Part shown: positions 3,609-9,003 of the stretch, in pieces
Layout: each line of letters opens with the position of its first letter
How positions within the stretch are numbered: position 1 is the first letter of the stretch
Assembly: GCA_003251275.1 (NCBI GenBank)
Contig: QKGJ01000399.1
Span: forward strand, 1-32,932
Direction: 5' to 3'
DNA from: Ignavibacteria bacterium
Lineage (GTDB): Bacteria; Bacteroidota; Ignavibacteria; UBA10030; UBA6906
Length of the DNA stretch: 32,932 nucleotides
Translations under genes and position numbers: made by a program
Notes under the pieces: model-generated
Told to the model about the DNA's origin: nothing
Databases searched by the model: none
The model's input: only the letters and a program-made list of their open reading frames with translations

Positions 3609-4424
3609 CTATTTTTTTTCTGCGGAAGGTGGAATTACATGCAAACCGGTCAGAACGGCTCTAGTGATGCTTTTTCTGTTGTTCGCGAAGGATTCATCCG
3701 GCTTTGCACTTTGCAGGCAGGTGGCGAAGAAATATACGTTCTCTATCGTCGTCACGTATCCTACGTACCAACCGATACTTTCGCCATCTTGCTCTCCCCA
3801 TCCTGTCTTTGTGCGGAGCGTGTAGTCTGGATGCTCTTCTTCTATCATTATTCTTTTCACGATCTCAACGGAACGTCTTGAAAATGGAAGCTCGTTGCTA
3901 TATAACCGCTTCAGGAAGTCAATCTGCTGTTCGGGTGTCACCCGAAGCCCGCCATCCAGCCAAAACCTGTCGATGCCGCCGGAGGTGTCCGCGTTGCCAT
4001 ACTTTGCCTTCGAAAGCCACTGATACATCCTCTCATTTCCAACGCGCCGGGCCAGCTCCTGGTAATACGGGACGTTGGAGTTTTTGTATGCGGTCTTCAG
4101 GTCATGATCCTTGTTCCATTTGTTCATGGTGCGTTTAATCCCGTCCCACTTGATGACAAAATCTTCATCCTCAATAACGCCCGTTTCCAGCCCAATGAGT
4201 GAATTGCAGATCTTGAATGTTGAAGCTGGTGTAAACGGCCGCGTGAACTGATCGGGATTGGTAAGAATATAGGTCTCCTTCTTCAAGTCATATAAGGAAA
4301 ATGATCCCGACACACCGGCGTTCTCGAAAAGTTTATTGAAGTCGTCCCGCACTTGCTTGTTTTGCGATTGTGCTGTGTTAATAAGAAACAGCGCGAGAGT
4401 CAAGGAGTGGAATAGTTGATGCAT
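3609..4424 (-). CDS. class D (OXA-type) beta-lactamase
   Basis: A periplasmic serine beta-lactamase of 271 aa that hydrolyses beta-lactams. Class D motifs are all present: STFK (residues 68-71, catalytic Ser and carboxylatable Lys), SNV (116-118), YGN (142-144) and KTG (206-208) in the context KTGWG, followed by the WYVGY strand. A signal peptide precedes (LFHSLTLALFLINTAQSQ). The frame can also start at a GTG at 4457, but the ATG at 4424 gives a standard signal peptide and has a GGGG stretch upstream. It lies 22-55 nt downstream of murB and is probably co-transcribed with it. Length and motifs match functional OXA enzymes; BlaR-type penicillin sensors share this fold, but no membrane anchor or second domain is present. 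Spectrum cannot be predicted. Confidence 0.93.
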   Translation of the reverse strand: MHQLFHSLTLALFLINTAQSQNKQVRDDFNKLFENAGVSGSFSLYDLKKETYILTNPDQFTRPFTPASTFKICNSLIGLETGVIEDEDFVIKWDGIKRTMNKWNKDHDLKTAYKNSNVPYYQELARRVGNERMYQWLSKAKYGNADTSGGIDRFWLDGGLRVTPEQQIDFLKRLYSNELPFSRRSVEIVKRIMIEEEHPDYTLRTKTGWGEQDGESIGWYVGYVTTIENVYFFATCLQSAKPDESFANNRKSITRAVLTGLHVIPPSAEKK

Positions 4425-4478
4425 GTGCTGCCCCACGATTGCTTGTGGTTGTTTCACTTCATTGCCAACACGGCGGCG

Positions 4479-5567
4479 TCAATTCGGGCTGACCGGGATG
4501 CCAGTTGAGCCGACAATCACCGGCTCCCGTTGAAGGCTAATGTTGAATTGTTCATGAACTTCACGCTGGATCGCATTGGCAAGCGCAAGAAGCTCGTTCG
4601 TCGTTCCGCCATAATTGACCAGCGCAAGCGAGTGGTTTACTGAAACACCGACATTCCCGGAACGATACCCTTTGTGAAAGCCAGCCTGTTCGACGAGCCA
4701 TGCAGCAGGGACTTTGACTCCTTTGTCAGCTGGAAAGTACGGAAGGTCTGTGTTATTCACCCGATGTTGAAGAGATCGAAATTCTGCGCGGGTAAGAACG
4801 GGATTCATAAAAAAGGAGCCGCACGATCTTGAATGTAAGTCAGCAGAATCGGCCACCATCGACTTTCTTTTCCGCAGCGCCATTACGGAGGCGCGGATTG
4901 CTGTGAGGGCTGCAGGCCCCCGTTGGTTGAGGATATTTTTTGATGTGCTCTCGATGTGTCGCTGGAGTTCGTCGTAACGGATTGCTGGCTTTCCATTGGG
5001 GGAGAGACGCAGGAGTACTTCGGTAATAACGAATCGTTCCCGGTCATTTTGCTTGAACCGACTCTGGCGGTAGCTAAAATCACACTCCTCGTTGGAGAAT
5101 TCTCTTTCCTGTAGCGTCGTTCGGTCAAGCACTTTGACGGAAATGATAGTCTCTCGTACTTCCTGCCCGTACGCGCCGACGTTCTGGACTGGAACCGCTC
5201 CGGCAAGTCCGGGTATTCCTGAAAGACATTCGATGCCGCTTGCTCCCTTTTGGATCGCAAATCGAACAACATCATCCCAATTTTCGCCAGATGCTACCCT
5301 CAGAAATCCTTCGTCTCCTTTTTCGGTATACTCAATTCCACTGAGCCCGATTCTGATGACTAGTCCGTTGAATCCGTCGTCCGAGAAAATGATGTTGCTC
5401 CCACCACCAAGGATCTGCACAGGCCATTGGTTTTCTGCAGCCCGACGGAGGCAAGTCCTGATCTGATCGATCGAGGTGACGGTCACGAAATGAGATGCCG
5501 GTCCGCCGAGACGGATGGTGGTATGCTCTGCCAGCGGGACGTTGCGGTCAAATCCCGGGGTGGTCAT
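4479..5567 (-). CDS. murB: UDP-N-acetylenolpyruvoylglucosamine reductase
   Basis: A cytosolic FAD enzyme that reduces UDP-GlcNAc-enolpyruvate to UDP-MurNAc with NADPH in peptidoglycan synthesis. Residues 10-180 carry the FAD-binding domain (ILGGGSNIIFSD near 52-63; GLSGIPGLAGAVPVQNVGAYGQE-type core around 116-136). The type I loop with the substrate-binding Tyr is present in SYRQSRFK (Tyr166). The catalytic acid Ser is in SCGSFFMNP (Ser251) and the C-terminal Glu is in REPV (Glu348). 362 aa fits E. coli-type (type I) MurB. The ATG overlaps the stop of the upstream nucleotidase gene (ATGA), so the two are translationally coupled. Confidence 0.97.
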   Translation of the reverse strand: MTTPGFDRNVPLAEHTTIRLGGPASHFVTVTSIDQIRTCLRRAAENQWPVQILGGGSNIIFSDDGFNGLVIRIGLSGIEYTEKGDEGFLRVASGENWDDVVRFAIQKGASGIECLSGIPGLAGAVPVQNVGAYGQEVRETIISVKVLDRTTLQEREFSNEECDFSYRQSRFKQNDRERFVITEVLLRLSPNGKPAIRYDELQRHIESTSKNILNQRGPAALTAIRASVMALRKRKSMVADSADLHSRSCGSFFMNPVLTRAEFRSLQHRVNNTDLPYFPADKGVKVPAAWLVEQAGFHKGYRSGNVGVSVNHSLALVNYGGTTNELLALANAIQREVHEQFNISLQREPVIVGSTGIPVSPN

Positions 5568-7090
5568 TGATTTCTTTGGAAGTGGTGGATGACCGCCTGG
5601 CGTATGTCATTTGGCGTCAAGTCTGGCGGCTCATGGATATTCGAGATTCCAGGGTTGTCTCTGCGAAGAAAGTCGAGGTTCGCTTCAGCACCGGTCAGGA
5701 GAAACTCGGTTAGTACTACTCGATATGAGGATTCCGGGTGCAGCACCTGGTCTTTGATCATCCACGATGACACTTTTGGATCGAACGCGATGTTCCGCCA
5801 CTGAAGATACCCCCCGCTTCCCTTATTAGAAACGCCCACGTCGAGAATTCTCTGAAGCAGCGAGCCTTTGATGGTCGTCGTGAAAATTCTCCCTCCAAAA
5901 GGAAGTGTACGAATGATATCATACTGGGTGACCGTGCCACTGACGATGTCGTCGACGCGGATCGAGCCGCTGTTGACAATTGCGCAGTCCGCCGATGGGT
6001 CCGCCTCCAACATTGCGGTTGCGATCAGCTCTGCGGCTTCCGCCGGACGATGACGGATTACCAATTCACGAAAGTCGAGCGGATAGTGCAACGAAGTAAC
6101 AATCTTGTCCGGCTCAAGACCCATCGATCGAAAACCATCGAATGCAGCGACAATCCATTTGTTTGCCACATAGGCCGTGGTTGAATCATCGGGAATCTTT
6201 TCATCAATGATGTTCAATTCCGAGTGAAGCTCAAGGCTGTCGCTCCCGGGTTTGAGGAGGAGACGGTGGACATAAACGCTTTTAACGTTTGCATCCGCCT
6301 TGGTGATAAGAGCGTTGCCGGCACGAACCGCCATATTGGTATGTTCATGACCGCCGAGAATGAGTTGAATCTCCGGCACCTGTCGCGCGAGATCCATATC
6401 CTGTTCGATCGTAAGGTGTGTGATTGCGATGAGGTAATCAATTCTTCCTTTAAGGGTGCGAACAACCCGTCTGGCAGACTCGATTGGATTTTCGAACAGC
6501 AGGTAATCCCGTTTGTTATTGTCGATCGTAAGCCCGATGAGACCAATGCGAACACGACGGACTGATCCGTCGCCGCGGGGAAAATTCATCGTTACTATGC
6601 CAAATTCGGGCAAAGGTTCGCGAACCCCACCGCGCGTTTGGGTAAAGTGTCCGATACCATTCTTCGAGATTTGTTGTACGTTGGAGGAAATCCAACGAAA
6701 GGAAGATTCGTTGATTCTTTCCTGCAACTCTTCTTTGCGAATGTCGAACTCGTGATTCCCGAATGTCACATGCGTTACCCCCACACGATTGAGCACATCC
6801 ACCATATGTGCACCGCTTATTCGTTTGCCTTCCAACTTGCTTGTTCCAATCGCGGATGGACTGAGAAAGTCGCCCGAGAGCACCGTCAGAAGGTGCGGCG
6901 ATTCTTGCTTGAGTCGATTGCGAAGAGTTGCCACGCGGGCGAGTCCACCGTACCTTCCCATTTCGAGGGGCCACAGCTCGTACACATCGTTAAATTGGAG
7001 AATAATGATTTCATCCTTCTGCGCAAGCGCTGGATAAACGGAAAGAAGGAGGAATGCGGCGACGAGTGCTCGTGAAAATCTGAGTTTCAT
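5564..7090 (-). CDS. exported 5'-nucleotidase family protein (metallophosphoesterase plus C-terminal 5'-nucleotidase domain)
   Basis: A periplasmic phosphohydrolase of 508 aa, probably acting on nucleotides or UDP-sugars. Signal peptide: residues 1-23 (ends in ALA). The calcineurin-like domain follows with GDFLSP (Asp74), GNHEFD (Asn112-His113), ITHLT and GGHEH supplying metal ligands. The first metal motif is NDVYE, that is D-x-Y, rather than the usual D-x-H, a variant I have seen in part of this superfamily. The C-terminal 5'-nucleotidase domain (about 320-500) contains NSGSIRVD and LPFGGRIF, with a GGYLQW substrate loop near 430. It overlaps murB by 4 nt. A link to UDP-sugar recycling in wall synthesis is plausible but inferred. 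Confidence 0.92.
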   Translation of the reverse strand: MKLRFSRALVAAFLLLSVYPALAQKDEIIILQFNDVYELWPLEMGRYGGLARVATLRNRLKQESPHLLTVLSGDFLSPSAIGTSKLEGKRISGAHMVDVLNRVGVTHVTFGNHEFDIRKEELQERINESSFRWISSNVQQISKNGIGHFTQTRGGVREPLPEFGIVTMNFPRGDGSVRRVRIGLIGLTIDNNKRDYLLFENPIESARRVVRTLKGRIDYLIAITHLTIEQDMDLARQVPEIQLILGGHEHTNMAVRAGNALITKADANVKSVYVHRLLLKPGSDSLELHSELNIIDEKIPDDSTTAYVANKWIVAAFDGFRSMGLEPDKIVTSLHYPLDFRELVIRHRPAEAAELIATAMLEADPSADCAIVNSGSIRVDDIVSGTVTQYDIIRTLPFGGRIFTTTIKGSLLQRILDVGVSNKGSGGYLQWRNIAFDPKVSSWMIKDQVLHPESSYRVVLTEFLLTGAEANLDFLRRDNPGISNIHEPPDLTPNDIRQAVIHHFQRNQ

Positions 7091-7121: not shown

Positions 7122-7937
7122 TTATTTGCGTGCTGCAATATCGATAACAATAGGGGAAACGAAAATTGTCTCAGGGTTATGCCGATGTTTCAGCCAATCT
7201 GCGAGGAGTGCATCTCCTCGCCCTCTTTCAAGAACCCCTTTCTCCACCATGAGCGGAATATGGACAGTAAAGAATCGATGCCCCCATTCTATGACACCAC
7301 TTTGCGGACCGCCAGCCAGACAGTGCGGAGAGTATTCGACGACGTCCAGTTTGAATTTGCGAAGAAGCCCCGGGAGGTTTGCCCCGATGTACGGATCTCC
7401 CCCCGCCGATTTGTAATATGCGCGAACGACATCGGGCATTCCATCAAAGGCACCACCGCGCGGAAATAATGACAGTCCTTCGTACAAATAATCCTGAATT
7501 GCTATGGTTCCGCCATTCTTCAATGCACGCACTAATGGAGTCAGGAACGCAGTGGGGTCTGGAGTGAATCCGATAACCCAACGGAAAAAAATGAGGTCAA
7601 AGTACTGGTCGGGAAGATTTGCGGTTTCGGCGGAGCCGCTCAATGTCCTGACATTGTGAAACCGCTTGTTCGCGGCCTCGCTTCGGAGTGTTTCCAGGTA
7701 CAACGTTGATGGTTCAAGTCCGGTGACTTCACCATCGGGACCCACACGTTCGGCGAGATCCAGAGTAGCAAACCCCGGACCGGCACCCACATCGAGACAA
7801 CGCCAACCCCTGGAAACGCCGATTCTCTCAAAGAAAGCATCAGTCACGGATTTCCAGACGGCATGCTGAAACCGAAGTCGTTCAAGTTCATCGGTATTAA
7901 CACCAAGCAGGTACTCACTCGTTGATTCAGCTGGCAT
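7122..7937 (-). CDS. class I SAM-dependent methyltransferase
   Basis: A 271-aa Rossmann-fold methyltransferase. SAM motif I is CLDVGAGPGFATLDLAE (about residues 47-64), the acidic end of strand 2 is in GLEPS, and motif IV is FDLIFFRWVIGF; a post-motif IQDYLYEG follows. The substrate is not evident; resemblance is to UbiE/Methyltransf_25-type small-molecule enzymes. It overlaps the 3' end of the upstream cyclase-like gene by 11 nt and so is almost certainly translated with it; whether it modifies a product tied to that protein is unknown. Confidence 0.9.
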   Translation of the reverse strand: MPAESTSEYLLGVNTDELERLRFQHAVWKSVTDAFFERIGVSRGWRCLDVGAGPGFATLDLAERVGPDGEVTGLEPSTLYLETLRSEAANKRFHNVRTLSGSAETANLPDQYFDLIFFRWVIGFTPDPTAFLTPLVRALKNGGTIAIQDYLYEGLSLFPRGGAFDGMPDVVRAYYKSAGGDPYIGANLPGLLRKFKLDVVEYSPHCLAGGPQSGVIEWGHRFFTVHIPLMVEKGVLERGRGDALLADWLKHRHNPETIFVSPIVIDIAARK

Positions 7938-9003
7938 GTTGACCTTCTATCAAGTCTTTCATCGTCCCATAATATTTCTGCGTCCTGATGAACCTCTTGG
8001 AAATGAACTGCGTGAGCGGCCTCCGAATCCATCGGGGAATCTTTATCTTAAAGTGAACCTGCCATGTAAGTCGCGTTCCGGAGCTCTGCGGGTCCAGTCG
8101 GTTTGTAAATATCACAGTCACGGGCGTTCCTGTATACTCCGAGGCAAAATATTCAAACGGCTTCCAATCAAGAATCCTCTCAAACGATTCTCCGCCCCCA
8201 TGCGCGCAATGGTTGGTTGCCCCAACAGCGGTTCTTCCCGATGGTCTCTTCCTTCCTGTCCATATCGAACCTTTTTCGCTCCATTGCGTCCGTTTGCTCA
8301 GGTCATTGAGCCATTCCCATACAATGATCGGAGGGCTCGAGAAGTCCATTGTGAACGAGTGATCAACCTCCTCAGGTTTGAGGAGATAGCGATGCGTATC
8401 TACGATCTCCTTGTAGCGAGTTGCGAGATTCAGTGAGCATGCCTGGAGTGGTGGAAAGTGTTCATAGGTTTCAGTTGTCTCAAGCAGGCCGCTCAATTGG
8501 ACCCCAAGCGCTTTCAGACTTTCCCGGGTAAACAATGCGTATGCCGTCCATCCCGTAGCTTCCGCCACACTGTTTTTCAAAAGACGATGACTCAGGTTCA
8601 CGTCGGATCCAACGGGTTTCTGCTGAAGGCCATAGTTCTGCATGACAAATTCACCCGCGTGGACAACAAACTTCAGATCGAGATTCGGGATTGCTTCGCA
8701 CGCTTTGCAGGTGCACGTCGTTCGTGTATTCATTACTTCTCGTTGTCTCCGAAACCGCACGTATGTGGCCTCAACGAGTTCTATGAGACTCTCTCCCCGC
8801 GAGATCATATCGAGTGGGGAATAGACGAACACCGCATCTCCTTCAACTTCCGCAAGGATCATTGTTGGCGTCAGCGAATTGATGACGAGGTTGTTCACTT
8901 CCTGAACGACCGCCTGAGCGTGCTGAAGCTCGGTTCCCGCCATAAAGGAGGTGTAGCCAGTAATATCGGCGAGCAGAAGGTACCCTCTCACTGTGGAGGC
9001 CAT
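7927..9003 (-). CDS. nucleotide-cyclase-like (DUF2652) protein fused to an SRPBCC domain
   Basis: A cytosolic 358-aa two-domain protein. Residues 5-190 resemble DUF2652 and class III nucleotidyl cyclases: ADITGYTSF (Asp13) and EGDAVF (Asp56) match the two metal-binding Asp motifs, and VNLSHRL (Asn136, Arg140) matches the VNxAxRL motif of the transition-state Asn and Arg. A cysteine cluster, CTCKAC (97-102), lies between. At the position of the purine-selecting Lys of adenylyl cyclases there is Glu52, as in guanylyl cyclases, but the alignment is by eye. Residues 215-355 look like an SRPBCC/polyketide-cyclase lipid-binding fold (IVWEWLNDLSKRTQWS at its start). A ribosome binding site (GAGGAAG) precedes the ATG. 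It sits 24 nt after the M61 peptidase gene and overlaps the methyltransferase gene. Confidence 0.8.
   Translation of the reverse strand: MASTVRGYLLLADITGYTSFMAGTELQHAQAVVQEVNNLVINSLTPTMILAEVEGDAVFVYSPLDMISRGESLIELVEATYVRFRRQREVMNTRTTCTCKACEAIPNLDLKFVVHAGEFVMQNYGLQQKPVGSDVNLSHRLLKNSVAEATGWTAYALFTRESLKALGVQLSGLLETTETYEHFPPLQACSLNLATRYKEIVDTHRYLLKPEEVDHSFTMDFSSPPIIVWEWLNDLSKRTQWSEKGSIWTGRKRPSGRTAVGATNHCAHGGGESFERILDWKPFEYFASEYTGTPVTVIFTNRLDPQSSGTRLTWQVHFKIKIPRWIRRPLTQFISKRFIRTQKYYGTMKDLIEGQHAS

Follow-up and report, generated by a model that had tools for sequence, protein, structure and literature searches.

A predicted class III nucleotidyl cyclase of the DUF2652 family, fused to an SRPBCC domain, in an Ignavibacteria bacterium

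Introduction

The DUF2652 proteins were proposed to be class III nucleotidyl cyclases in 2016 by Ramakrishnan et al. (PMC4886424). In the passages of that paper that deal with the family, the Bacteroidetes members with a Glu-Lys/Arg pair are predicted to be guanylyl cyclases, all but one of 53 members are treated as single-domain proteins, a DUF2652 domain with a C-terminal polyketide cyclase domain is given for one protein (U1IMS0, Bradyrhizobium), and the table of neighbours names cyclic nucleotide-binding, alpha/beta hydrolase, helix-turn-helix, phosphohydrolase and periplasmic-binding domains. In a passage by a reviewer the cyclase prediction is described as quite robust and easy to verify. 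In the relevant part of another paper DUF2652 is merely a table entry. Within the open-licence PMC literature, where the works naming DUF2652 are computational, we found no measured activity for any DUF2652 protein, and likewise no paper on a combination of SRPBCC with guanylate cyclase, or of HEAT repeats, a cNMP-binding domain (cNBD) and a transporter.

Here we analyse a stretch of 32,932 nucleotides from an Ignavibacteria bacterium (the window), which encodes a DUF2652-SRPBCC fusion protein. A first-pass annotation, made from the letters alone, had regarded the unit as new; the cyclase assignment, the argument from Glu to GTP and one polyketide-cyclase fusion are already present in the 2016 passages (PMC4886424), and newness cannot be claimed for them. 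The window protein belongs to the same Pfam family and has the same metal-binding Asp residues as the members described there, whereas the SRPBCC fusion, represented by one protein in those passages, is a large subfamily in our set: all 69 aligned members score DUF2652, and 61 of them Polyketide_cyc2 (PF10604, E <=0.01). What our analysis adds to the 2016 prediction is a cNBD-transporter context for part of this subfamily, a charge-swapped base pair whose Glu/Lys and Lys/Glu forms share a single tree, a CxCxxC motif that is invariant and tandem copies; the cysteine passages of PMC4886424 concern base-reading and phosphate positions and not this motif.

Among proteins of known structure, CyaC (1wc1) and Cya2 (2w01) share with the window protein the fold, the metal Asp and the Asn/Arg motif, and Cya2 also the Glu at the base-selecting position, but identity to them is 16-17%, and the window protein has the CxCxxC insert and an attached SRPBCC domain. 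Its Lys129 stands where Cya2 has Gly, according to the corresponding passage of PMC4886424. NE0264 (1xfs) and the ABA receptor PYL3 (4jda) have the helix-grip fold of its SRPBCC domain, which in the window protein, unlike in these two, is fused to a cyclase fold and bears a conserved H265-C266 in an NHCAHG-like motif.

Methods

The locus counts given below refer to 79 fusion loci, each taken with as much as 6 kb of flanking sequence. They were found with search patterns that covered residues 12-20 and 108-116, which inflates the conservation of these two segments; outside the patterns lie D56, the Cys triad, R140, H28, G132, W229 and C266. The 95 fusion rows comprise the window protein, 89 ORFs of the 79 loci and five from further genomes, with L104/L105, L062/L029 and L088/L056 as duplicates among them; rows L107 and L113 were left out of the tree. 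AlphaFold2 was given an alignment (A2) of the window protein with 68 of the 89 fusion ORFs, and the canonical reference profile was made of eight class III cyclase domains drawn from the same fusion loci. The base-reading pair was located by spacing, at -4 from Asp56 and -7 from Asn136, which we take to be the positions of the canonical Lys/Asp or Glu/Cys pair, and most canonical sequences from the loci agree.

Results

Both halves of the protein were recognised by Pfam over the curated cut-offs. PF10851 (DUF2652) covers residues 34-148 (E 4.3e-27; 94.9 bits, cut-off 22.1), which makes the ORF a member of that family, and PF10604 (Polyketide_cyc2/SRPBCC) covers residues 219-337 (E 2.9e-7; 31.3 bits, cut-off 27.4). 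The features are collected in Table 1.

Table 1. Positions of the fusion gene, its domains and residues, and two neighbouring genes (window coordinates unless a locus is named)
Feature	Position	Strand	Basis
DUF2652-SRPBCC protein, 358 aa, probable nucleotidyl cyclase	7927..9003	(-)	ORF list and Pfam
Class III cyclase-fold domain, residues 1-199	8407..9003	(-)	structural match to CyaC/Cya2; PF10851
Asp13, metal-binding Asp 1	8965..8967	(-)	93/95 rows; aligned with canonical Asp
Glu52, base-selecting position, four residues before Asp56	8848..8850	(-)	Glu in 19/95, Lys in 61/95 rows
Asp56, metal-binding Asp 2	8836..8838	(-)	93/95 rows; aligned with canonical Asp
C97-x-C99-x-x-C102 insert, ahead of the LDLKF strand	8698..8715	(-)	each Cys in 95/95 rows
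Lys129, partner of Glu52, seven residues before Asn136	8617..8619	(-)	charge opposite to position 52
NLSHR, Asn136 to Arg140, transition-state motif	8584..8598	(-)	aligned to VNxASR; row conservation
SRPBCC/START-like domain, residues 208-358	7930..8382	(-)	own model and PF10604
Class I SAM methyltransferase, 271 aa, 11-nt overlap; not judged part of the system	7122..7937	(-)	Pfam
L092 transporter	L092:1483-4443		directly downstream of DUF2652-SRPBCC; MFS_1, TLC, HEAT, cNMP_binding (Pfam)

The AlphaFold2 model of the full protein has a pLDDT of 93.9 and a pTM of 0.89. When its residues 1-199 were compared with known structures by VIA-align, CyaC (1wc1_C) matched with Z 19.9, rmsd 2.3 and 181 aligned residues, and Cya2 (2w01_A) with Z 19.9, rmsd 2.7 and 186; the top Foldseek match of this domain was OaPAC (4yut, E 1.5e-9). 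The hhalign comparison with the canonical class III profile (E 7.1e-7, probability 91.9) put Asp13, Asp56, Asn136 and Arg140 in register with the canonical metal-Asp and VNxxxR positions. With the single protein as query, a sequence search of the PDB returned antibody chains only (E 0.4); the alignment as query gave weak SRPBCC matches amid unrelated chains (E 0.003-0.9). By sequence and model, the window protein has the catalytic-domain fold, the two metal Asp and the transition-state Asn and Arg that characterise class III cyclases.

These residues are strictly kept in the subfamily. Asp13, which lies within a segment covered by the search patterns, Asp56 and Arg140 are each found in 93 of the 95 fusion rows, His139 in 91, and D13, D56 and R140 jointly in 92; one of the three rows lacking the full set is a contig fragment. 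Asn136 is more variable, being kept in 64 rows and replaced by Ile in 25, and Ile is also found there in 11 of 12 DUF2652 rows that do not belong to the fusion set. The three cysteines of the insert, invariant in the fusion rows, are each present in 11-12 of these 12 rows, and the loop that bears them probably acts as a knuckle with a structural metal or a redox role. The first-pass annotation had read from the letters a DUF2652-type domain with the two metal Asp and the Asn/Arg motif, a Cys-rich insert, a Glu at the purine-selecting position and a fused SRPBCC domain, and in all of this it was borne out, as were the single-chain fold and the residue conservation by which it had suggested checking the idea.

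The base-selecting residue is Lys in canonical adenylyl and Glu in guanylyl cyclases. The window protein combines Glu52 with Lys129, which is neither the canonical Lys/Asp (ATP) nor the canonical Glu/Cys (GTP) pair. Across the 95 fusion rows the pair is Lys-Glu in 53, Lys-Asp in 8, Glu-Lys in 17, Arg-Glu in 5 and otherwise composed in 12; among twelve other DUF2652 proteins it is Glu-Lys in 11 and Lys-Glu in one. In the 95 tree rows with charged residues at both positions, the order is plus/minus in 67 and minus/plus in 28, and like charges do not occur. On the tree the swap of charges requires no fewer than two changes among the fusion proteins, which does not suffice for a test, and it yields two independent contrasts on starred branches or four on all branches. 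According to the passages on the family, the canonical pair varies among known class III members and is hence not strictly defining (PMC4886424). The Glu52/Lys129 pair points to GTP as the predicted substrate of the window protein, i.e. to a guanylate-type enzyme, and the Lys/Glu relatives would by the same reading use ATP.

The same residues bear on the alternative that the domain is a cyclase-derived, non-catalytic nucleotide sensor, which would bind an NTP or a product and pass the signal on by way of its SRPBCC domain or of a partner. Such a role would agree with the non-canonical Glu/Lys pair, with Ile in place of Asn136 in 25/95 fusion and 11/12 other DUF2652 rows, with the loss of Asp or Arg in some members and with our finding no published DUF2652 activity in open-licence PMC; a non-catalytic binder, however, would not need both metal Asp and Arg140 with the strictness seen in 92/95 rows, and this retention counts against it. 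We consider the sensor unlikely, at a weight that still deserves attention.

The C-terminal half has the helix-grip fold of the SRPBCC/START superfamily. Residues 208-358 modelled alone gave a pLDDT of 94.0, and this domain matched NE0264 (1xfs_B) with Z 16.8, rmsd 2.4 and 137 aligned residues, and PYL3 (4jda) with Z 14.9. The domain is pocket-shaped and a probable small-molecule binder. Its His265-Cys266 (window 8206-8211, minus strand) has Cys266 in 94/95 rows; a conserved Cys is unusual for a plain ligand pocket.

Two or three consecutive fusion genes were found at 8 of the 79 loci. In L096 (7077-8147) and L097 (8375-9241) the last copy keeps both Asp but carries Gln at position 52, Asp at 129 and Phe at 136; in L109 the first copy (4588-5679) has lost both Asp and Arg140 and the second is intact; the other five tandem loci have no such loss at the checked positions, except L095, whose second copy differs at position 151 only. 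In analogy to the C1/C2 arrangement of mammals, the degenerate and intact tandem copies suggest heterodimeric cyclases in some lineages. At L118 two fusion copies flank a canonical class III cyclase, and at L110 the fusion gene shares 4 nt with the gene of an alpha/beta hydrolase-cyclase. Ser/Thr kinase-TPR genes stand in runs beside L038 (a paralogue, G000:C146), L056 and L088, which are closely related to the window protein; since this kinase family occurs at just 4/79 fusion loci with several copies per run, we keep the kinases as a lead and not as a partner.

In the window the fusion gene belongs to a packed co-directional run that extends from thrB to an OXA-like gene (thrB, thrC and murB are presumed names, assigned by eye from the translations). 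The spacing is about 24 nt from the M61 peptidase gene to the fusion gene, -11 nt to the methyltransferase, about 31 nt from there to an UshA-like gene, -4 between the latter and murB and 21 between murB and the OXA-like gene; thrC and thrB overlap by 4 nt. The 11-nt overlap of fusion and methyltransferase genes, noticed in the first reading, is real (7927-7937), and with such tight packing and other small overlaps in the run it says little by itself. Promoter and terminator sites were no more numerous than in shuffles.

Two members of the run may be mentioned on their own account. The UshA-like gene (window 5564-7090, minus strand, 31 nt after the methyltransferase) is of the 5'-nucleotidase/2',3'-cyclic phosphodiesterase family and has by eye a likely signal peptide. 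The OXA-like gene (3609-4457, minus strand) is class D (OXA-type) beta-lactamase-like, with 273 bits against the NCBIfam class D cut-off of 250, and falls short of the thresholds of those named OXA subfamilies that were listed. A defence system was also considered and rejected, PADLOC giving no match for the fusion protein and a single one, mad2, for the methyltransferase.

The methyltransferase (Methyltransf_31, E 6.5e-17) is judged to be an operon neighbour only and not a partner of the fusion protein. No homologue of it was found near the fusion gene at any of the 79 loci (flanks up to 6 kb, E 1e-3). Conversely, in 197 genomes of the class, 29 of which, the window's own included, have a match at E <=1e-20, it occupies 30 loci, and that of the window alone has a DUF2652 gene within ~1.5 kb (0/29 elsewhere). 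As a positive check, the same phmmer query recovered a methyltransferase (1.6e-13) that lies some 1 kb away from L043, another DUF2652 gene of the window's own genome; L043 was not counted as the same pair, since sigma factor-like and small zinc-finger-like ORFs (by eye) intervene. As far as examined, the pairing is therefore local to this genome, and the coupling to methylation proposed by the first-pass annotation is rejected; of the three-part co-occurrence that it expected across genomes, the union of DUF2652 with SRPBCC recurs and the methyltransferase does not follow it.

This absence of linkage weighs equally on the idea of a small metabolic operon, in which the cyclase fold would catalyse some other reaction, the SRPBCC domain would handle a lipid-like substrate or product and the methyltransferase would modify it. 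Polyketide aromatase/cyclases are indeed found among SRPBCC folds, and the gene overlap would suit such an arrangement; with no linkage at 0/79 and 0/29 loci, and no obvious biosynthetic cluster among the neighbours of the relatives listed, we regard it as improbable. A signalling unit of cyclase-like, SRPBCC and methyltransferase parts, to which the same-strand overlap had pointed, is largely refuted and we give it hardly any credence, the pair being absent from all other loci examined (0/79, 0/29) and unrelated neighbours in the same run (UshA-like/murB, thrC/thrB) overlapping by 4 nt as well.

A different neighbour emerges among the relatives. An MFS/TLC-HEAT transporter is the next downstream same-strand gene at 13 of the 79 fusion loci, or 13 of the 47 that have a same-strand downstream gene, and all 13, mostly labelled Chloroflexi or Anaerolineae, carry the Lys/Glu pair. 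In L092 the transporter has a cNMP_binding domain at E 3.1e-21, and such a domain is present at 10 of the 13 loci, the remaining three (L083, L093, L103) being cut by contig ends. GE...R is the phosphate-binding pattern of the cNBD, and it is kept by the ten cNBD sequences. The protein looks like a cyclic-nucleotide-controlled transporter. With 187 cNMP-binding matches across the 13 genomes, between 7 and 23 per genome, and an assumed ~1 gene/kb, the adjacency would arise by chance with a probability well under 1%, with the reservation that the loci lack independence. Among the 78 pairs of transporter loci, 63 have no other neighbour family in common, and across the loci identity drops to 45% for DUF2652 and 40% for the transporter.

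The link is real and not obligate, and viewed from the transporter it is weak, since the transporter also occurs without an adjacent DUF2652 gene. At E 1e-80 it was found in 7 of 151 genomes, four of them outside the fusion set: in one it adjoins DUF2652, in another it lies beside a convergent ORF that is by eye a canonical class III cyclase, and in the other two, one of which has it on a short contig, neither is adjacent; DUF2652 is present somewhere in three of the four, once as a fragment. Among 21 other DUF2652 genomes it was found at E 1e-60 in seven, one being the known L104 pair, and at the six remaining loci no DUF2652 lies within ~1.5 kb. Next to the window's gene or the other Glu/Lys fusion loci we saw no cNBD transporter, and no neighbour common to the window and these loci was noticed. 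For the family the transporter appears to be a better partner than the methyltransferase, and it is absent beside the window's gene. The window's genome, which has four DUF2652 genes, contains six canonical class III cyclase and six cNMP-binding matches, so that cNMP signalling is present there.

Discussion

From our analysis, we propose that the product of the window ORF is a soluble DUF2652-family class III cyclase with an activity set by a ligand of the SRPBCC domain, a reading to which we give a probability of about 0.6. A hydrophobic or amphipathic small molecule would bind the C-terminal helix-grip domain, which would in turn set the activity of the N-terminal cyclase domain. By analogy with other class III cyclases, two copies may dimerise head to tail, so that Asp13 and Asp56 would be the metal ligands, the opposite subunit would contribute Asn136 and Arg140 to steady the transition state, and the pair at positions 52 and 129 would read the base, GTP here and ATP in the Lys/Glu relatives.

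A wider scheme, which we offer tentatively and would not yet wager on, is that in Anaerolineae-type Chloroflexota a ligand-gated DUF2652-SRPBCC cyclase may feed the adjacent MFS/TLC-HEAT-cNBD transporter, that the exchange of Lys/Glu for Glu/Lys may be an ATP/GTP switch, and that some tandem copies (L096, L097, L109) may form C1/C2-like heterodimers with one partner devoid of base-reading or metal residues.

If the proteins are active, a large uncharacterised family would join the cAMP/cGMP field with an SRPBCC small-molecule domain as its input and, in one lineage, the adjacent cNMP-binding transporter as its output. The adjacency makes the prediction of 2016 testable with enzyme and reader both in hand, and the Lys/Glu and Glu/Lys members would constitute a natural series for the study of substrate choice in class III cyclases.
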